Shown: positions 31,579 through 64,000 of the stretch, piece after piece
Position numbering within the stretch: the first letter of the stretch is position 1
Layout: each line of letters begins with the position of its first letter
Assembly: GCF_000745965.1 (NCBI RefSeq)
Contig: NZ_JQKI01000012.1
Span: 1-64,000 of the forward strand
DNA length: 64,000 nucleotides
Origin: Edaphobacter aggregans DSM 19364
GTDB taxonomy: Bacteria; Acidobacteriota; Terriglobia; Terriglobales; Acidobacteriaceae
Direction: 5' to 3'
Notes under the pieces: model-generated
Databases searched by the model: none
The model's input: only the letters and a program-made list of their open reading frames with translations
Told to the model about the DNA's origin: nothing
Position numbers and translations under genes: made by a program

Positions 31579-33045
31579 TTAATCCACCAGGGCAGAGTTG
31601 TTCGAGTATTCCTTCAGCTTGTTCTGCAGTGTCTTTGAACTGATCCCAAGAATCTCGGCGGCTTTGGTCTTGTTGTTATGGGTCGCCATCAGCGTCTTTA
31701 AGATTAGCTGACGTTCTGCCTCATCGACCGTTGTGCCCACTTCCACGCGAACCGTGTTCTGGTCTTCGAGATACTTCTCAACCTCGCTCGGCCGCCCGCT
31801 GGACCCCTCGACCGCACTCTCGACCGCAGCCGCAAAACGCCCGCTCTTTGTCATCACCGGGGCAAACCCCGCCTCGCCGAAATGCGGCGGAAGGTGCTCG
31901 GTGCTCAGCATCCCCGAGCCCGCCATGATCGTCGCCCGCTCAATCGTGTTGCGCAGCTCGCGGACGTTCCCCGGCCACGAATACTCCTCCAGCCGCTTCA
32001 GCAGCGTGTCCTTGATTCCCGTCACCGTGCAGTTGTGCCGCTCGTTCATGTCGGCGATCATCTTCCGGGCAATCGGCTCGATGTCCTCCTTGTGCTCACG
32101 AAGCGGCGGCATCTGGATGTTGAAGACGTTCAGCCTGTAGTACAGATCGCCGCGCAGCTCGCCGGCAGCCACTGCCTCTTCGGGGTCCTTGTTCGTTGCC
32201 GCGACAACTCGCACGTCCACCGGAGTCTCCGCCTTGCTGCCCAGCCTGCGCAGCTTGCGGTCCTCGAGCACCCGCAGCAGCTTGGCCTGCGTCGCAGCAG
32301 GCATCTCGCCGATCTCGTCCAGCAGCAGCGTCCCCTCCTCGGCCAGCTCAAAGCACCCTGCCCTGCGCTCCAGCGCGCCCGTGAAGGCTCCCTTCTCATG
32401 GCCGAAGATCTCGCTCTCGATCAGCGTCTCCGGAATCGCCGCGCAGTTCACCGCGACAAATGGCTTGCTCCGCCGCGAGCTCAACTCGTGCAGCGCGCGC
32501 GCCACCAGCTCCTTGCCCGTGCCGCTCTCGCCGGTCACCAGCACGCTTACGTTGGAGGGAGCGATGCGCTCGAGCAGCGAGAAGATCGCCTTCATCTTCT
32601 GCGACATCCCCACCAGCGGACCAAGCATTCCCGTATCGCGCTGCCGCCGCCGCGTGGCCTCGAACTCCGTGTCTACATCCGTGTCGTGCTGGCGGCTCGC
32701 GTTCTGCAGAATCGTCCTAAGGCGCAGAGGATCCACCGGCTTCGGGATATAGTCGTACGCGCCCTTGCGCATCGCCTCCACGGCCGACTCGATCGAGCCC
32801 TGCGCCGTCATCATCACCACCGCCATGCGCTGGGGAAGCTCCGCGATACGGTCCAGCAATCCCATCCCATCCATGCGCGGCATCTTAAGATCAGTCACCA
32901 CGATGGCGGGGTTCCAGGCGATCGCCTTCTCCAATCCCTCTACGCCATCGGCTGCGCCCTCGGTCTTGTACCCCCAGCTCTCAATCAGCTCGGTTAACCC
33001 CGTGCGCGCGTGAATCTCATCTTCGACAATCAAAACCTTTTCCAA
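31579..33045 (-). CDS. Sigma54-dependent response regulator, NtrC family
   Basis: About 488 residues from TTG 33045, which has AGGAG 5 nt upstream; ATG 33075 lacks one and gives a non-receiver extension. The receiver domain has the acidic pair in LIVEDE and phospho-Asp in VTDLKMPRMDG (~52). The AAA+ domain carries Walker A GESGTGKE, the sigma54-contacting GAFTGA and Walker B LLLDEIGEMP. A Fis-type helix-turn-helix ends the protein (NKTKAAEILGISSKTLQNKL). It activates sigma54 promoters when phosphorylated by the kinase encoded next. No sigma54 promoter was located with confidence in the window. Confidence 0.94.
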   Translation of the reverse strand: MEKVLIVEDEIHARTGLTELIESWGYKTEGAADGVEGLEKAIAWNPAIVVTDLKMPRMDGMGLLDRIAELPQRMAVVMMTAQGSIESAVEAMRKGAYDYIPKPVDPLRLRTILQNASRQHDTDVDTEFEATRRRQRDTGMLGPLVGMSQKMKAIFSLLERIAPSNVSVLVTGESGTGKELVARALHELSSRRSKPFVAVNCAAIPETLIESEIFGHEKGAFTGALERRAGCFELAEEGTLLLDEIGEMPAATQAKLLRVLEDRKLRRLGSKAETPVDVRVVAATNKDPEEAVAAGELRGDLYYRLNVFNIQMPPLREHKEDIEPIARKMIADMNERHNCTVTGIKDTLLKRLEEYSWPGNVRELRNTIERATIMAGSGMLSTEHLPPHFGEAGFAPVMTKSGRFAAAVESAVEGSSGRPSEVEKYLEDQNTVRVEVGTTVDEAERQLILKTLMATHNNKTKAAEILGISSKTLQNKLKEYSNNSALVD

Positions 33046-54990: not shown

Positions 54991-55475
54991 TTTTCGGACC
55001 TCATCTAGGCGTTTTTAGTTCCCTGGGGTCGTTGAGGACAGAACGTTCCAGTGCCCTGCAACTTTGCGCCGGAATGACTCGACAAGGTCTGTGCCGCAAG
55101 GTCCGATCTAGCGTCAGGCGTGGATCCGAACCGATGCTCTCGATGCTGAAATGGGGCCGTGGATACGGGAGGACGTGTATGAACCTCCCTGAACCATCGC
55201 GGATAGGGCCGAGGCGAGTCGCGGATACCTTACTCCAAATTGCAGGCTGGAGTCTAATTCCAGAGGTGAGGAAGGCGCTGCCGCCTTGGGCGAGTCCCAC
55301 TCATGCGATGCGGCCGTTTTGACTCAGCTTTCGAGCTTGCCGATCTCTAACATCGCTCCAAATGTGTGTCATCCTGAGCGCAGCGAAGTCGAAGAGCCTG
55401 CCCTGCGAAGCCGAATGGGATCTGCGGCTTACCCCGATCGCACCGGCACTCCACCGGCTGCTATAGTCAACTCCG
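54991..55475. other. Non-coding stretch with one dispersed repeat
   Basis: About 485 nt. Short open frames on both strands have no domain, start signal or codon bias to support them. 55366-55440 is a repeat copy and is listed separately. Promoters for the flanking divergent genes must lie here, but none is convincing. Confidence 0.5.
55366..55440. repeat. Dispersed GTGTCATCCTGAGCG repeat, copy with nested block
   Basis: GTGTCATCCTGAGCGCAGCG and AAGTCGAAG are followed by an inserted AGCCTGCCCTGCGAAGCCGA block before GGATCTGCGG resumes. The inserted block is the same kind as the one nested at 43881-43908. Confidence 0.8.
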
Positions 55476-57011
55476 ATGACCTACTCGAACTCGCGCCGCA
55501 CGTTCCTCCGTAACAGTTCTCTGGCTCTCGCCGCAACTAGCCTCTTCCCTGCCTCACTTCTCGCACAATCCGGAGCCACTCTCAAACTAGGTACCGGTGC
55601 CCCCATCGCCAAAGTCCCCGCCGACTTCATCGGTCTCTCCTACGAGGCCATGCAGCTCGAAGACCCCACCTTCTTCTCCCCCGCCAACAAGGGCCTCATC
55701 GCCGAGTTCCGCCACCTCTCCCCGCGCGGCGTCCTCCGCCTCGGCGGCAACACCAGCGAGTTTGGCTGGTGGAAGGCCACGCCCTCCGCGCAGCCGCCCG
55801 ACCGAACCCACCGCGCAGCCGTCATGGGCGAGCCGCCGCCCACCACCATCTTCGCCATCACGCCCGAGGCCGTCCGCAACCTCGAGGGCTTCCTCCGCGC
55901 CACCGGCTGGACCTGCATCTACGGCCTCAACCTCGGCTTCGCCGTCGAAGCAGCCGACGTAGCCGAGGCAGTCTTCGTCTCCCAGACCCTCGGCCCGCGC
56001 CTCCAGTACTTCCAGCTCGGCAACGAAGTCGACATCTTCAACCGACACCTGCGCGATCCCAAGACCTGGGGCGTCGACCAGTACCTCAAGGAGTGGGTCC
56101 CTCTCGCGCTCGCCGTTCAAAAGGCCGTTCCCGGCGCGAAGTTCGGTATGCCCGACGTCGCCTCCGACGTCTCCTGGCTTCCGAAGATCGCCGACCGCTG
56201 GCCCTCGCTCCCCGAGAAACCCAACGTCACCACCCTCTCGCATCACTACTACTGGGGCGGCCCGCCGAAGAGCCCCAACGCCAGCATCGAGCGCCTCATG
56301 AAGCCCGCTCCCGCCGTCGTCAGCAAGGCCGCCCTCGCGCGCGAGGCCGCGCAAAAGATGGGCCTGCCCTACCGCATGACCGAGGGCAACACCGTCTACC
56401 AGGGCGGCAAGCCCGGCCTCAGCGACGTCTACGCCGCCGCGCTCTGGGGAGCCGACTATCTCTTCGAGCTCATGTCGCTCGGCTACTCCGGGGTCAACCT
56501 CCACGGAGGCAGCGGCCACGCCCAGGCCGTCTCGGTCGGCGGCTCGCTTCCCGGCGAGCAGCTCATGAAGGATCCCAACGTCCCGCACCCCAAGCCCTTC
56601 TACACTCCCATCGCCAACGAGGGCACCCTCGCCGGCTCCGGCGTCGACGGCAAGCTCAACGATAAGTACCTCCTCGAGCCCGCAGGCTACGGCATGAAGT
56701 TCGCCTCACGCTTCGCCGGAACCACGCTGCTCCCCATCGACTTCAACCCCGGCCAGGTCAACGCCGTTGCCTACGCAGCCCGCCGAGCCGACAACAAAGT
56801 CATCGTCGCCATCCTCAACAAAGACGCCACCCAGGACCTCACCCTCACCGCACCCGCCGCCGAGATCCTCGAAACCCTCACTGGCTCCGCACTCGACCAG
56901 CCAGAGACCCATCTCACCCCCGGCGGTAAATCCATCAAGACCAGCAAAGCTGCAGACGGCCAGACCATCACCATCCCCGCCCACACCGCAGTCATGCTGC
57001 AACTACGCTGA
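55476..57011 (+). CDS. Secreted glycoside hydrolase, GH79-like
   Basis: 511 residues. A Tat-like signal SRRTFLRNSSLALAATSLFP opens the protein. The barrel shows LGTGAPIAKVPADFIGLSYEA, GVLRLGGNTSEFGWW, the likely acid/base Glu in YFQLGNEVDIFNRH (~188) and the likely nucleophile Glu in YRMTEGNTVYQGG (~305). A C-terminal beta-domain (LLPIDFNPGQVNAVAYAARR, VIVAILNKDATQDLTL) follows. This fits family GH79 (beta-glucuronidase/heparanase type), so glucuronic acid-containing glycans are likely substrates; the exact linkage is unknown. Confidence 0.78.
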   Translation: MTYSNSRRTFLRNSSLALAATSLFPASLLAQSGATLKLGTGAPIAKVPADFIGLSYEAMQLEDPTFFSPANKGLIAEFRHLSPRGVLRLGGNTSEFGWWKATPSAQPPDRTHRAAVMGEPPPTTIFAITPEAVRNLEGFLRATGWTCIYGLNLGFAVEAADVAEAVFVSQTLGPRLQYFQLGNEVDIFNRHLRDPKTWGVDQYLKEWVPLALAVQKAVPGAKFGMPDVASDVSWLPKIADRWPSLPEKPNVTTLSHHYYWGGPPKSPNASIERLMKPAPAVVSKAALAREAAQKMGLPYRMTEGNTVYQGGKPGLSDVYAAALWGADYLFELMSLGYSGVNLHGGSGHAQAVSVGGSLPGEQLMKDPNVPHPKPFYTPIANEGTLAGSGVDGKLNDKYLLEPAGYGMKFASRFAGTTLLPIDFNPGQVNAVAYAARRADNKVIVAILNKDATQDLTLTAPAAEILETLTGSALDQPETHLTPGGKSIKTSKAADGQTITIPAHTAVMLQLR

Positions 57012-57043
57012 GGTAGATCCAACCCAGAGCCTCCCCACTAAGG

Positions 57044-57089
57044 TGTCATCCTGAGCGGAGCGCAGCGGAGTCGAAGGATCTGCGGTTTG
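57044..57089. repeat. Dispersed GTGTCATCCTGAGCG repeat copy
   Basis: Intergenic copy just after the GH79-like gene. Its first 42 nt (57044-57085) are identical to the copy inside the coding region at 62468-62509. Confidence 0.9.
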
Positions 57090-57129
57090 CTCGAGCAACC
57101 ACAAATTCAAGCTATGAGCAAAAACAAAA

Positions 57130-57162
57130 ACCGCCGCGGACAATAGCAGTCCGCGGCGGTTC
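57130..57162 (-). terminator. Terminator of the glucose-6-phosphate isomerase gene
   Basis: AACCGCCGCGGA / TCCGCGGCGGTT is a perfect stem with a 9-nt loop. On the minus strand it is followed by TTTTTGTTTTTG, just after the pgi stop. Confidence 0.85.
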
Positions 57163-57172
57163 TTCCTGCCAC

Positions 57173-58804
<1,632 letters not shown>

Positions 58805-58840
58805 GTCTCTCACTTCTCCTCTGCTTGTTGCTGGTTGATT

Positions 58841-58970
58841 GTTTATCGTTTAAACGAGAAGCTTTCCCACTTTAATCTTCTCACAGCAACAACCACAGCT
58901 GCATGACAGCAAAGCGAGGTGCGCGGATGCCACCAGAACTTGCGAAAGAGTTCGTTGTGCGTTTATCGTT
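58841..58970. promoter_or_regulatory. Candidate IclR operator repeats between pgi and the regulator
   Basis: The 10-mer GTTTATCGTT occurs at 58841-58850 and again at 58961-58970. The first copy runs into the perfect palindrome TCGTTTAAACGA (58846-58857). IclR/PobR-type regulators bind palindromes and 10-bp direct repeats, so these are candidate sites; evidence is positional only. Confidence 0.35.
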
Positions 58971-59033
58971 AGTAGAGTCCGGCTATCGCCCCCCCGTTCG
59001 ATCACTCGCGACAACGCCGGCTGGAAGGGATCC

Positions 59034-59891
59034 ATGAGCCTCACCCAGCGTCAACCGCTCTCCCCCGCCGTTCCTCCTCCCGCACTTGCACCCACCGCGA
59101 AGGCCACGCCGGCCGCCTCACTCGACGCCTTCACCGGCGACCCCAACTTCATGACCTCCCTCGCCCGCGGGCTCATCGTCATCCAGGCCTTCACCCAGCA
59201 GAACCCCCAGATGACCATCTCGCAGCTCAGCGTTCGCACCGGCCTCTCCCGCGCCGCCGTTCGCCGCTGCCTCTACACCCTCACCAAGCTCGGCTTCGCC
59301 GGCGCCGAGGACGGCTCCCGCTACTCCCTCCGCCCGCGCATGCTCACCCTCTCCCACTCCTACACCACGTCGAACACACTCTCCTCCGCCGCGCAGCCCA
59401 TCCTCGAGCGCATGTCCGCGCAGTTCCGCGAGTCCTTCTCAGTCGCCACCCTCGACGGCGACGACATCGTCTACGTCGCCCGCTCCACCGTCAACCGCGT
59501 CATGGCCGTCGACCTGCACATCGGCAGCCGCCTTCCCGCCTACTGCACCAGCATGGGACGCATCCTGCTCGCCTACCTTCCACCCGAGCAACTCGAGACC
59601 TACCTCGCCCGCGTCGTCCTCACCCCGCACACCAGCCGTACCGTGGTCTCCGTCGATAAGCTCCGCATGCTCCTGCGCAACATCCGCCGCAACGGTTACG
59701 CCATCTGCGACCAGGAGTACGAGGTCGGCCTCCGCTCCCTCGCCGTCCCCGTCTTCGCCGCCAACGGACGCGCAGTCGCCACCATCAACCTCAGCGGCAA
59801 CGCCCCCCGCATCTCCGCGCTCGAGATGCAGACGCGCTTCCTCCCCCACCTGCGCAACGCCGCCAACGAGCTAGCCGTCTTCCTCCGCTAA
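59034..59891 (+). CDS. IclR-family regulator, PcaR/PobR-like
   Basis: 285 residues with AAGGGA before the ATG. A Pro/Ala-rich N-terminal ~35 residues precede the helix-turn-helix: FMTSLARGLIVIQAF, MTISQLSVRTGLSRAAVRRCLYTLTKLGF. The effector domain has SVATLDGDDIVYVARS, RLPAYCTSMGRILLAYLP and YAICDQEYEVGLRSLAVPVF, as in PcaR/PcaU/PobR of aromatic degradation. No aromatic-degradation gene lies nearby, so its ligand and targets are open; the divergent pgi gene is a possible target. Confidence 0.9.
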   Translation: MSLTQRQPLSPAVPPPALAPTAKATPAASLDAFTGDPNFMTSLARGLIVIQAFTQQNPQMTISQLSVRTGLSRAAVRRCLYTLTKLGFAGAEDGSRYSLRPRMLTLSHSYTTSNTLSSAAQPILERMSAQFRESFSVATLDGDDIVYVARSTVNRVMAVDLHIGSRLPAYCTSMGRILLAYLPPEQLETYLARVVLTPHTSRTVVSVDKLRMLLRNIRRNGYAICDQEYEVGLRSLAVPVFAANGRAVATINLSGNAPRISALEMQTRFLPHLRNAANELAVFLR

Positions 59892-59947
59892 GAGAATCGT
59901 GTACCGCGAAATGATCGTATTTAAGCGAAAGGATCGTATTTAAAAGG

Positions 59948-60000
59948 GTGTCATCCTGAGCGAAGCGGCGCAGCCGCGAAGTCGAAGGATCTGCGGTTCG
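59948..60000. repeat. Dispersed GTGTCATCCTGAGCG repeat copy with extra hairpin
   Basis: GTGTCATCCTGAGCGAAGCG, then GCGCAGCCGC, then GAAGTCGAAGGATCTGCGGT. It lies between the IclR and manA 3' ends, in the same orientation as the copies at 57044 and 60960. Confidence 0.88.
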
Positions 60001-60010
60001 CCCGTCGCGG

Positions 60011-60928
60011 CTAAGACGCTTGTGCCACTGCCGGAGCTACGCACCGCACAAACCGAGCCCCCAGCTCCGCCTCCACCATCACCTCGCCGGTCCCCGCCGG
60101 AACCACCACGGCCTTCCCCGGCTCCAACTCCACCTCATCCCCCGGCGTAGTCACCCAGACCTTCCCTTCGATCCCCACCAGGCACCCGGCTCCGTCCATC
60201 GCAACGCGCCGCTCCTCCATCTCGCCCAGATCGAACCGGTCCACGACAAAGTACCTCTGCTCGATCAGCCGTGTGAACCCATCCATCTGCTGCGGCGCAA
60301 CCTTGCCCGCCTGCGTCTTCGGCTTGATCACCTTCAGCCCCTGCTCCAGGTGCAGCTCTCTCGGACGCCCGTAGTCGTACAGCCTGTACGTCACATCGCT
60401 CGTCTGCTGCGTCTCCAGCAGCACCACGCCCGGCCCGATCGCGTGCACCGTGCCTGCGTCGACAAACAGCATATCGCCCACCGACACCGGAACCCACTCC
60501 ATCAGTTCCTCCATCGTGCCGTCCGCAATCGCCGCCTTCACCTTTGCGACATCCACACCGTCCTTCAGTCCCAGCGCAACCGCAGCCCCCGGCTCGGCTT
60601 CGAGCACATACCAGCACTCCGTCTTGCCGCGAGCCTCGCCTGCCGCCTGCGCCTGCGCATCGTCCGGATGCACCTGTACCGACAGCTTCTCGTTCGGAAA
60701 CAGCAGCTTCACCAGTAGCGGAAACTCGCCCCCCAGCTCCGGCGTAAGCGAAGCCAGCGTCTTTCCCGCCAGCTCATCACCCTCTTCGACGACGCACTGC
60801 GGCCCCGTCAGCCACGCCTCACCAACCAGCTCCGTCGTACCCGTGTCCTCGTACCACGGCTCCAAACTCTTCCTACCCCACGGCCGCGGGCTAAACCACG
60901 GCTTCAAACGAAACGGCGCCAAACTCAT
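60011..60928 (-). CDS. manA: Mannose-6-phosphate isomerase, class I (short form)
   Basis: About 305 residues from ATG 60928, which has GGGAGG upstream. FSPRPWGRKSLEPWYED opens the family pattern; zinc ligands lie in KLSVQVHPDD (His) and DAGTVHAIGPGVVLLETQQTSD (His, Glu), with the catalytic Arg region VTYRLYDYGR. This is the ~300-residue bacterial type. It links fructose-6-phosphate to mannose-6-phosphate, the entry to GDP-sugars. Close to pgi, so hexose-phosphate genes cluster here. Confidence 0.92.
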   Translation of the reverse strand: MSLAPFRLKPWFSPRPWGRKSLEPWYEDTGTTELVGEAWLTGPQCVVEEGDELAGKTLASLTPELGGEFPLLVKLLFPNEKLSVQVHPDDAQAQAAGEARGKTECWYVLEAEPGAAVALGLKDGVDVAKVKAAIADGTMEELMEWVPVSVGDMLFVDAGTVHAIGPGVVLLETQQTSDVTYRLYDYGRPRELHLEQGLKVIKPKTQAGKVAPQQMDGFTRLIEQRYFVVDRFDLGEMEERRVAMDGAGCLVGIEGKVWVTTPGDEVELEPGKAVVVPAGTGEVMVEAELGARFVRCVAPAVAQAS

Positions 60929-60959
60929 CCTTCCTCCCAAATCTTCTGTTTAAACAATA

Positions 60960-61005
60960 GTGTCATCCTGAGCGAAGCGTAGTGAAGTCGAAGGATCTGC
61001 GGTTT
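60960..61005. repeat. Dispersed GTGTCATCCTGAGCG repeat copy
   Basis: GTGTCATCCTGAGCGAAGCG, then TAGTGAAGTCGAAGGATCTG and CGGTTTA. It lies upstream of manA and downstream of the phosphoesterase gene. A TGTTTAAACA palindrome precedes it at 60947-60956. Confidence 0.9.
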
Positions 61006-61049
61006 AATCTGCATGATCGACTCATACTTCCACTGAAGCAACTAGTCAT

Positions 61050-64000
61050 CTAGTCGTCGTCATCATCCTTCTTCGCCTTCTTCCGCTTCTCCAGCAGCAT
61101 CGGCGGCACGGCCTTCTCGCCCATCGCGTCCTTCCACAGAATAACGTTCAGCTTCTGCGCGTCCGCCCTGTCTGCGTGCTGAAAGTCCATCTTCATCGAC
61201 TCCTCCGCCCCCACCGCCGTCGCCCCATTCGCCGTATAGATCAGCCCATTCTTCTCATTCGAGTAGTCCGCCGCATACGGCTCGTGGTCTCCCGGCCCCC
61301 TAAACAGCGAGCCGATCATCGAGCTGAACGCATCGTTGTTGTTCATCGGCGGCAGCCCCAGCAGCGTCTCCATCGTCCGGATCACGCTCACCGTCGAATA
61401 GAACCTGCTGTCCACAAACGCGCTCCCATCCTTCGCCCGCGGCGAATACTTGCTCACCACCAGCGCAATGCTCCTGTGCGCGTCCACATGGTCCGCGCCA
61501 TTCTGCGCATCATCCTCCAGGATGAAGAACGCCGTATCGTCCCAGTACGGCGAGTGCGAAATAGCCTCGACCACGCGCCCCACCGCCAGGTCGTTGTCCG
61601 CCACCGACGACTTCGGCGTCGGCCCTCCCGGAGTCGTCCCTGCCGTGTGGTCGTTCCCCATTCGCAGCATCACGAAGTTCGGCATCGTGTCCTTGCCGTT
61701 CGCGCGGTCCTTCACCCACCCGCTCAGGTGCCGCATAAAGATCTCCGCGCGAATCTGCTCCGGAATCCGCAGATTGAAGTCCGGAGCCTCCGTAGCAAAG
61801 TGCCCCACCAGCTCCGGCTTCGTCGGAATGTTCTTCGCAACCCGCGGAATCGCCCACGGCCACTTGTTCACCCCGCCGCCCCACTCCGCTGGAATCTCCT
61901 CACCCGGATGGATCGCCGGCTTCGCGCAGCTCTCCCCCTCCACCATCGGCCCCTGCTGCGGATTCGCCACCATCTTCGAATCGCAGAACTTCGACGAGAT
62001 GTACTCGCCAAAGTGGTAGTAAGTCTTCCCATGCCTCGCCAGGTTGCCCCACAGATACCCGCTCCACGGCTCGTTCACATCGGGAATGTTCTGCAGCAGC
62101 GGATAACCCTCCGCAACTACGCCCTCGAAGTCATACGTCCTCTGCGACCCGCGATACGACTGCTGCCACGTCCTCTCCAGATAGTCCGTGCCAATCGCCG
62201 CCGTCGACCACACATGCCCGTCGCCCGACACCTCGCCCGAGTCGTAAAAGTTATCCAGCACGCCAAACTTGAGCGCCAGCTTGTGCTCGTTCGGAGTAAT
62301 CTCCTTGCCGTACATCGCCAGGCTCGCATCGCCATTGCCCACGCGCTTGCCGCCCTGCTCCAGATCGCCCAGCACCTGGTCGTAGGTCCGGTTCTCCTTG
62401 ATGATGTAGATCACATGCTTGATCGGCCCACTCCAGTTCGAGTTGGCAGCGCTGGAATCTTTCCCAGTGTCATCCTGAGCGGAGCGCAGCGGAGTCGAAG
62501 GATCTGCGCTTCTACCGCCTCCCTGCCCCGCCCTCCGCATTACCTCCGGAGCAAACTGAATCTTCTCCTCCGCCGCCTTCATGCGGTTCTGCTCCACCAC
62601 CTCCGCCGTCCACCGCTTCAACTCCTTCTCCATCGCCGCCGCATCCAGCACCGCAACCGACCCGTAGAGCAACGTGCCGATGTACGTCGACTTCGACTTC
62701 CCATACCGAGCCTGCGTCTCCGGAGTCACCCGCTGCGGCATATTGTTCGGCCCCGTGCCCTTACCCTTGCCCGTCGCGACGTACAACTTGCCGTTCACCA
62801 TCGCCATCGCCGTCGGCAGCCACTCCGTCGGCAGAAACCCGATCGGCTCAACCATGCCCTTCGCCGCATGCGCCGCCGTCAACTTCGTTACATCCAGCAC
62901 CGCCACCGCGTCCGAAGCCTGGTTCCCCACATACACCCTCTTGCTGTCCGCCGAGACCGCCAGCGCATCCGGCTCCGCGCCAAAGTAGCTCTGCCCCGGC
63001 AGCCTCGTGTCGAAGTACCCCTTCGCCGCAAACTGCCCCTTATCGATGTTCACCGCCACCACCGCATCGCGGTTCGCCAGCGCCACGTACATCGTCTTTC
63101 CATCCGGAGCGATCTCGAGCACGATCGGATGCGTCCCCGCAGCCGTCGGCGAGCTAGGCTTCAGCAGCGCAACCTTCCTCCCCACCGTGCCCGTCTTCAG
63201 ATCCAGCTCCACGACCTCGCTCGCGTTCCACAACGCCACAAACGCGCGCGACTCATCCTTCGTCACCGCCAGCCCCACCGGATACACCGAAGGCACCGCA
63301 TTCGACTCCGCCAGATCGAACCTCTTCTCGATCGCTCCCGTCCCCGCATCCATCAGCCAAACATCATCAGTCAGGTTCCCCGCGACCAGCAGCTTCTCCG
63401 CCCCACCCTTCCCAATCGTCGCAATCGCCGCAGGAAACGGAACCCCCAGGTCCCCCTCCACGCCGCCCACCAGCAGCGTCTTCCGCCCCGCAGCCAGCTG
63501 CTGCATCGGAATCTTCAACAGCTTTTCGCGCGTAATCTTCCCCGCGTCAAAGCTGTACACGATCACACCGCTGCCCACGTCCTTCGCGCCGCCATTCCCC
63601 TTCGGGTCCGTCTCCGATCCCAGGCTCGCGTAGATCCTCTTCCCGTCCCCGCTGAACGCCAGCCCCGAGTACAGCGTCTGCTTCGCCCCCACCAGCGTCC
63701 AGTCGTCCGGAAAATCCGCGACCTTGCCCGTCTGCGTATCCAGCACAGCCAGCGACTGCATGTACCTGGACTCGTACGTCCCGTACCCCGCATTCACCGT
63801 CACCACATAACGCCCATCCGGCGAAACCCCCATCGACATCGGCAGACTGTTCAGCCGCTCCGGCCCACCCGGAACCGGTCGCAAAAGCTTGCTCGTCGGC
63901 AGATCAATCCCCTGCCCGATCGCCTGTCCCGCTACCGTCTGGCCCGTGCCAGCAACCACCACCAAACCAACGATCGCCACCGCTCCCGCCAGACTCCGTA
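61050..64000 (-). CDS. YncE-type propeller / phosphoesterase fusion protein (5' end beyond window)
   Basis: At least 980 residues; the frame is open to the right edge, so the true start lies outside. A signal peptide is visible (AGAVAIVGLVVVAGTGQTVAG). Residues ~40-480 form a YVTN/YncE-like beta-propeller (MSMGVSPDGRYVVTVNAGYG, RVYVGNQASDAVAVLDVT, PTAMAMVNGKLYVATGKG). From ~515 a phosphoesterase domain (PF04185-like) follows: HVIYIIKENRTYDQVLGDLE, NFYDSGEVSGDGHVWSTAA, HLSGWVKDRANGKDTMPNFV and DDTAFFILEDDAQNGADHVDAH. Both are periplasmic. The short linker between them (SADPSTPLRSAQDDTG) is encoded by a dispersed repeat. The C-terminus is Lys/Asp-rich (KKRKKAKKDDDDD region). Confidence 0.88.
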   Translation of the reverse strand, partial: RSLAGAVAIVGLVVVAGTGQTVAGQAIGQGIDLPTSKLLRPVPGGPERLNSLPMSMGVSPDGRYVVTVNAGYGTYESRYMQSLAVLDTQTGKVADFPDDWTLVGAKQTLYSGLAFSGDGKRIYASLGSETDPKGNGGAKDVGSGVIVYSFDAGKITREKLLKIPMQQLAAGRKTLLVGGVEGDLGVPFPAAIATIGKGGAEKLLVAGNLTDDVWLMDAGTGAIEKRFDLAESNAVPSVYPVGLAVTKDESRAFVALWNASEVVELDLKTGTVGRKVALLKPSSPTAAGTHPIVLEIAPDGKTMYVALANRDAVVAVNIDKGQFAAKGYFDTRLPGQSYFGAEPDALAVSADSKRVYVGNQASDAVAVLDVTKLTAAHAAKGMVEPIGFLPTEWLPTAMAMVNGKLYVATGKGKGTGPNNMPQRVTPETQARYGKSKSTYIGTLLYGSVAVLDAAAMEKELKRWTAEVVEQNRMKAAEEKIQFAPEVMRRAGQGGGRSADPSTPLRSAQDDTGKDSSAANSNWSGPIKHVIYIIKENRTYDQVLGDLEQGGKRVGNGDASLAMYGKEITPNEHKLALKFGVLDNFYDSGEVSGDGHVWSTAAIGTDYLERTWQQSYRGSQRTYDFEGVVAEGYPLLQNIPDVNEPWSGYLWGNLARHGKTYYHFGEYISSKFCDSKMVANPQQGPMVEGESCAKPAIHPGEEIPAEWGGGVNKWPWAIPRVAKNIPTKPELVGHFATEAPDFNLRIPEQIRAEIFMRHLSGWVKDRANGKDTMPNFVMLRMGNDHTAGTTPGGPTPKSSVADNDLAVGRVVEAISHSPYWDDTAFFILEDDAQNGADHVDAHRSIALVVSKYSPRAKDGSAFVDSRFYSTVSVIRTMETLLGLPPMNNNDAFSSMIGSLFRGPGDHEPYAADYSNEKNGLIYTANGATAVGAEESMKMDFQHADRADAQKLNVILWKDAMGEKAVPPMLLEKRKKAKKDDDDD
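62468..62509. repeat. Dispersed repeat embedded in frame in a coding region
   Basis: These 42 nt are identical to the intergenic copy at 57044-57085. Read on the minus strand they supply 14 codons (about ADPSTPLRSAQDDT) of the phosphoesterase protein without breaking its frame. Confidence 0.95.

Follow-up and report, generated by a model that had tools for sequence, protein, structure and literature searches.

A CGTC-type REP-like repeat inserted in frame in a propeller/phosphoesterase gene and several housekeeping genes in the genus of Edaphobacter aggregans

The palindromic elements of Rickettsia raised the question of whether short palindromes seed protein segments outside reduced, parasitic genomes. 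The same question is posed by a 64,000-nucleotide stretch of Edaphobacter aggregans DSM 19364 (contig NZ_JQKI01000012.1, positions 1 to 64,000; hereafter the window), where a short intergenic repeat recurs inside a protein-coding gene. The gene (61050..63998, minus strand) runs off the window, has a genomic open frame of 999 amino acids and encodes a protein with propeller-type and phosphoesterase matches, the beta-propeller being N-terminal and the phosphoesterase C-terminal. Its repeat copy occupies 62467..62511 on the plus strand and in minus-strand reading encodes ADPSTPLRSAQDDT. This copy is a repetitive extragenic palindromic (REP)-like element of the CGTC kind, in variant form, which is found in frame both in the propeller gene and in a number of housekeeping genes across the genus. 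With a probability of about 0.72, we regard it as a copy of a short, non-autonomous mobile element that spreads with help in trans, survives in frame and is later refreshed.

Matches to TCATCCTGAGCG with at most one mismatch number 5 in the window, versus 0.54 expected, and none of 100 shuffles reached 5. Besides the coding copy, plus-strand intergenic copies lie at 57043..57087, at 55366..55410 (with a variant right half), at 59948..59997 (with the 5-bp inner palindrome GCGGC-GCA-GCCGC) and at 60960..61004. An earlier note on this DNA had reported 42 nucleotides shared between the coding copy and the one near 57 kb, near copies at 55366, 59948 and 60960, and an open frame through the segment. 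The near copies and the open frame are real, as is the identity, which spans 62467–62508 and 57043–57084; its coordinates were one base off, 62468–62509 and 57044–57085 agreeing at 41 of 42 positions with the last base mismatched. This identity does not show a recent jump, since 6 of the 101 copies fetched from the genome, three of the six inside genes, share an identical 39-base core. At the site of the 60960..61004 copy, the related genomes G213, G206 and G233 have no repeat, and no more than 8 bases separate the aligned portions of the two neighbouring genes.

In most orthologues read, 3–5 residues separate the propeller and phosphoesterase parts. The host protein has an extra linker of ~39 residues there (62430..62549, minus strand), only ~14–16 of these residues being repeat-derived. 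The repeat was absent from the site in 27 of 27 relatives read in a family-wide sample (29 loci fetched, two giving no frame), and locus L034 carries a long linker unrelated to it. Within the genus, where 30 orthologues were read of 41 with a match (4 of them also among the 27), 26 had no repeat at the site. Neither observation that the earlier note named as refuting its view, the segment in orthologues of distant genera or no further repeat elsewhere in the genome, turned up in the sequences read. G213 and G206 share the gene neighbourhood, are 83–84% identical over the C-terminal half and have no repeat at the site. Repeat-derived segments were present in G220, G233, one of two G222 loci and G238. 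The close relative G220 has two, one differing from the host copy by one base in 41–44; because this near-identical copy occupies the same site, the host copy may predate the split from G220. In those of G233, G222 and G238 the stem, judged by eye, is of a third kind, GTCATTCC..GGAAT, with a decayed right half in G238. Because relatives carry a different subtype at this position, the segment is an insertion at a recurrent site, or hotspot, and not a single event.

The segment is a genome-wide repeat. The host genome (G000; 8.18 Mb in 345 contigs, 7.2% contamination) holds 109 exact copies of the 12-base head GTCATCCTGAGC (66 forward, 43 reverse), versus 2 for a reversed control pattern. Anatomy was read from 101 of the 109 (100 listed places plus one on contig C83), with the right half parsed in 93. 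A typical copy consists of T-GTCATCCTGAGCG-(A/G)AG, a variable inner palindrome, and then NAGTCGAAGGATCTGCGGTT or the tail variant GGACCTGCATTT. Two subfamilies were apparent, TGTC-ATCCT..AGGAT and CGTC-ATTCT..AGAAT, the second running CGTCATTCTGAGC...GAAGAATCC; 3' tails are CTGCGG/CTGCAT in the CCT type and CCCTGTATTT in the TTCT type (by eye, in G229). The outer stem measures ~5 bp, and the inner palindrome, of 2–12 bp, differs from copy to copy. Across 71 distinct inner segments, a few of which span two tandem heads, the longest perfect stems summed to 344, versus a shuffle mean of 192 and maximum of 208 (100 shuffles), and the 44 inner stems of at least 4 bp had 26 different left arms. The outer stem covaries: after 34 copies without a found partner were set aside, 106 of 109 scored copies were paired (C-G 78, T-A 28, C-A 2, T-G 1; Fisher p 1.5e-22). 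Tag and stem type were associated: of 101 CCT copies, 99 have a T tag, and of 31 TTCT copies, 30 have a C tag, the association being less clean in stretches from relatives (72/80 and 7/10, respectively). AGGAC tail variants were frequent, and one AT pair is broken by them. We base the argument for structure on the inner-palindrome statistics and the stem covariation, since no consistent sign of stability emerged when seven strands from the five copies in the window were folded as single-stranded DNA, only the plus strand of 57038–57092 reaching a z of about -2. An Rfam scan of 55000–64000 returned two matches with E up to 1 (0.96 and 0.97), both under the gathering score.

Some copies are tandem. 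The 12-base head and its flank are repeated, without the rest, on contigs C8, C12, C13 and C15; the three head-only copies on C15 (L174 1287–2585) fall within a possible N-terminal extension, the start codon being uncertain, of a protein that weakly matches intramembrane proteases. Genome G203 carries tandem arrays (L255 4600–5400 and 11340–11900) of ~80–118-base units, in each of which a single repeat copy is joined by a tail resembling TTTGCCGTTGC; the inner palindrome is present in some units and not others, as if a cassette had been gained or lost, and one array is broken by a run of N. At the intergenic site 59948–59997, G220 (L245 5500–5720) has the same outer part and an entirely different inner palindrome.

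Tolerance of the repeat in coding sequence, also foreseen in the earlier note, is borne out by several in-frame sites. A two-model gene caller, which recovered the known genes at the right end of the window, called 72% of the sequence coding and gives crude counts, placed 6 of the 101 copies in genes, 9 across a gene end and 86 in intergenic DNA. A first caller based on codon usage was discarded: strand skew made antisense calls, and known genes were missed. One of the six genes is that of the propeller protein; the other five encode a leucyl-tRNA synthetase (LeuRS; TIGR00396, 948 bits, above cut-off), an asparaginyl-tRNA synthetase (AsnRS; NF003037, 540 bits, above cut-off), a UvrD/PcrA-type helicase (Pfam UvrD_C; partial, under equivalog cut-offs), a B12-dependent ribonucleotide reductase (partial, under cut-off) and an RcgR-like hydrolase (under cut-off; the comparison with relatives covered the other five genes). 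Enzymes of these kinds are generally essential. Two reading frames, on opposite strands of the repeat, are used, ADPSTPLRSAQDDT where the gene lies opposite the repeat and VILSEGAAEVEGPA where it lies on the repeat's strand; four of six frames were open in the copies looked at. Inner stems of the in-gene copies are short, 2–3 bp in five and 5 bp in the sixth. Among 16 relatives, repeat-like peptides occupy the same linkers (by eye) in 7 for UvrD and 5 for LeuRS; for AsnRS the figure is at least 6 of the 14 that aligned, and for the reductase ~10 of 15 aligned. In the five recognisable proteins the copy sits in a linker, and the corresponding linkers of relatives contain that copy, a different one or none. 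The LeuRS linker measures 168 bases in the filled host gene versus 120 in the empty G233 gene, a difference of 48 that is near the element's length. We consider the inserted peptide probably tolerated rather than used.

In two genes, uvrD and leuS, the copies that species have in common depart little from the family consensus at silent sites. Third positions were compared over 9 conserved repeat codons in 7 genomes (21 pairs) for uvrD and 6 genomes (15 pairs) for leuS, pairs that are not independent; the filter, at most three mismatches per half, favours conserved copies, and it dropped one uvrD row (G220, which seems one codon short). Over all comparisons, repeat codons differed at third positions by 0.111 in uvrD and 0.037 in leuS. 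At identical residues, the difference was 0.077 in the repeat versus 0.417 in the flanks of uvrD, and 0.017 versus 0.294 in leuS. When 9 upstream codons were drawn at random 5000 times, values this low came up 0 times for uvrD and 23 times for leuS. Because silent positions are so much more alike in the repeat than in its flanks, the shared in-gene DNA seems to have been re-inserted, converted or selected, beyond plain inheritance. A more specific picture, to which we give somewhat less than even odds, is that the repeat family keeps rewriting the same linker codons, other copies on a single replication strand homogenising the in-gene copies or taking their place, and inner palindromes being swapped as cassettes while the outer frame stays; linkers of essential proteins would then be in concerted evolution driven by a DNA element and not by the host gene's own mutation and selection.

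Orientation follows local base composition in two genomes. The GTCAT strand is the C-rich strand in 100 of 101 host copies (tandem heads counted singly; mean skew -0.24, both flanks C-rich in 94), and on contigs C1 and C7, 40 of 41 copies, from both subfamilies, match the skew sign of their own 5-kb bin, the exception being C1:601635. In G203, all 67 copies fetched are on the C-rich strand, 47 of them within two array stretches; of the 100 copies listed (of 244), on contig 1, the minus strand bears 10 of the 11 that lie below 609 kb, and the plus strand bears the remaining 89, many of which are clustered. Smaller samples gave 4/4 in G220, 3/3 in G150, 1/1 in G213 and 1/2 in G233. Base composition of the element does not explain this placement, because a consensus copy of 40 bases contains more G (16) than C (10, hand count). 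The C-rich strand is generally the lagging-sense strand. The rule is clear in two high-copy genomes (G000 and G203) and not in a third (G229). Regional GC skew is strong in the window at 32000–64000 and on host contigs C1 and C7 (up to ~0.3 per 5 kb); in the host, its sign flips every tens to hundreds of kilobases and the codon usage of both gene directions is affected.

Copy number varies widely. Across 62 genus genomes, GTCATCCTGAGCG occurs 0 to 274 times and is present in 59. At least one GTCATYCTGAGCG was found in 143 of 297 Acidobacteriota genomes, with high counts mostly in the host's family and a few elsewhere. Another 26 genomes, most titled as other phyla, were reached via loci of the gene's relatives; 14 had at least one match, and Hymenobacter (G533, L385), with 203 matches of a 13-base head, was the only many-copy genome among them. 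The Hymenobacter matches are listed largely as plus/minus inverted pairs, one of which, when read, forms a long hairpin; horizontal transfer and convergence are both possible.

From these data we infer single-strand mobility and homogenisation. The element would spread at replication forks by way of a single-stranded DNA intermediate and would depend on an enzyme supplied in trans. Insertions in genes would survive if the frame is kept and a linker is hit, and conversion, or renewed insertion at these hotspots, would refresh copies later on.

Several observations weigh against this reading. No target duplication or clean junction was definable, filled- and empty-site species differing by ~15–20% in DNA, and some filled intergenic sites, like the propeller linker, exceed the size of the element. 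In a four-gene tree, with branch supports from 54 to 100 and three genomes lacking AsnRS data, the LeuRS copy is present in G000, G213, G220, G219, G034 and G246 and absent from G229, G233 and G206 of the same clade, whose short, outgroup-like linkers show no visible remnant; this absence needs losses, several gains or exchange. A strand rule was expected in every genome, and G229 breaks it. Skew there is weak, not exceeding 0.17 in the 21 stretches sampled; of 13 copies fetched, 9 are on the C-rich strand, the listing shows both strands, and the first 100 of its 160 copies include 16 plus/minus pairs whose members lie within 200 bases. Nor is a transposase tied to the element. Copy number and Y1 transposase count are weakly correlated over the 62 genomes (Spearman 0.27, p 0.03), and each of the 11 genus genomes that lack a Y1_Tnp match, some of them incomplete assemblies, still has between 1 and 137 copies, the maximum being in G034.

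Slippage or template switching at replication forks might make and spread copies without transposition. The head-only tandems on four host contigs fit such a process, as do the duplicated heads seen by eye in G213 LeuRS, in frame and spaced ~21 bases, and the strand dependence in two genomes. Full-length copies dispersed at unrelated loci, however, need long-distance transfer, and we think it unlikely that slippage accounts for the family. Selection for a functional DNA or RNA element is another candidate, the hairpin being kept, also in genes, for example as a transcript stabiliser or a protein-binding site. Stem covariation, inner palindromes that stay perfect as their sequence changes, silent-site conservation in genes and the mostly intergenic placement (by the crude gene caller) are all consistent with it. 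The range of copy numbers in the genus and the empty sites in relatives nevertheless argue that no single copy is needed; the short inner stems of the host's six in-gene copies and the mostly unremarkable folding energies in the window also make this explanation rather unlikely.

The genus's own REP-associated tyrosine transposases (RAYT; Y1 family) could mobilise the element, as is thought for GTAG REPs. Y1_Tnp matches occur in 51 of 62 genus genomes; the strand bias fits single-strand transposition, and copy and gene numbers correlate, if weakly. The host has Y1 genes on contigs C83 and C19, and in the flanks of the C83 gene, which were read, a repeat copy lies ~260–300 bases downstream. Against this, genomes lacking any match carry copies, G228 has two Y1 genes and zero copies, and the C83 gene (L195 600–1600, 2440–2470) is flanked by a hairpin of its own, which by eye ends in GTAG. 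A search covering the Y1 family found no element-linked transposase, and RAYT mobilisation, tested in this way, was not supported; we hold it to be improbable. Near the C83 gene lie two repeats of the TTCT type and one of the TGTC type. Contigs C83 and C77 are possible contaminants, C77 carrying a second phosphoglucose isomerase gene (71% identical). Purely vertical descent, each in-gene copy having inserted once, long ago, with likeness to the consensus due to peptide selection, is improbable: the UvrD copies do fall in a single clade with the host (the G246 linker being unclassifiable), so that insertion is at least partly inherited, but the silent-site differences tell against it and the use of two opposite-strand frames in different proteins means that no single peptide was selected.

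Repeat insertion in enzymes is seen here in a free-living soil genus, where a small repeat DNA repeatedly writes new peptide linkers. Empty, filled and doubly filled sites across species make gain, loss and homogenisation measurable. Should other genomes with strong skew obey the strand rule, it would offer a handle on the movement of REPs without a known transposase.

Literature found on Granulicella and Acidobacteria repeats, REP/RAYT systems, Rickettsia elements and in-frame repeats shows no description of the element, subscription papers being largely outside reach; searches on the encoded peptides found nothing, and those on the DNA motif found none concerning the repeat, judged by title. 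RepRanger tabulates numbers for Granulicella aggregans (PMC12306157). No description was found, in the accessible text of PMC3733652 or elsewhere in this literature, of the element, its nested variable palindrome, in-gene silent-site conservation or the strand rule.

Among mobile sequences of other kinds, the enterobacterial RU elements are likewise small, have open frames and lie inside annotated genes, and are set apart by their description as 103–168 bp and similar to miniature inverted-repeat transposable elements (PMC2759123). Single-strand transposons of the IS200/IS605 family resemble the element by analogy alone, through replication-linked strand preference and hairpin recognition (PMC6006769); the element here encodes no enzyme. 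GTAG REPs, with their paired forms (REPINs) and RAYT genes (PMC3116915; PMC3733652), are also short, many-copy hairpin repeats, and inverted pairs occur in G229 and Hymenobacter, whereas the element has no GTAG tag and persists in genus members without a RAYT gene.

The closest relation is to the CGTC REP superfamily, defined by Di Nocera et al. 2013 in five phyla, Acidobacteria not being among those named in the accessible text (PMC3733652). The 5' tag, CGTC or TGTC here, is CGTC and often TGTC or CCTC there; and the stem begins with complementary AT in both, here as ATCCT/AGGAT and ATTCT/AGAAT. The 3' tail, of ~3 bases, mostly CCA, in the superfamily and of the forms given above in the element, may be a further likeness. 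Both combine intergenic spread with in-frame copies in DNA repair and tRNA synthetase genes. For CGTC REPs no transposase was found (PMC3733652), and the same may hold for the element, to judge from the Y1 family. They differ in the stem, which is continuous in the superfamily (8–9 bp with a 4–5-base loop), whereas in the element the ~5-bp outer stem gives way to unpaired bases and then to an inner palindrome that is nested and hypervariable, and in arrangement, the host copies read being single or head-tandem and not inverted dimers. Because in-gene CGTC copies, including some in repair and synthetase genes, are listed there, in-frame REP insertion is a known kind of event (PMC3733652). RPE-4 and RPE-6 of Rickettsia, together with dRS3 of Neisseria, have been linked to CGTC REPs (PMC3733652), which makes apt the earlier note's likening of this repeat to the Rickettsia palindromic elements: RPE-4 and RPE-6 are CGTC-tagged REPs, which the element resembles, and by description it shares with the Rickettsia elements the functional trait of in-frame insertion into genes of unrelated function.

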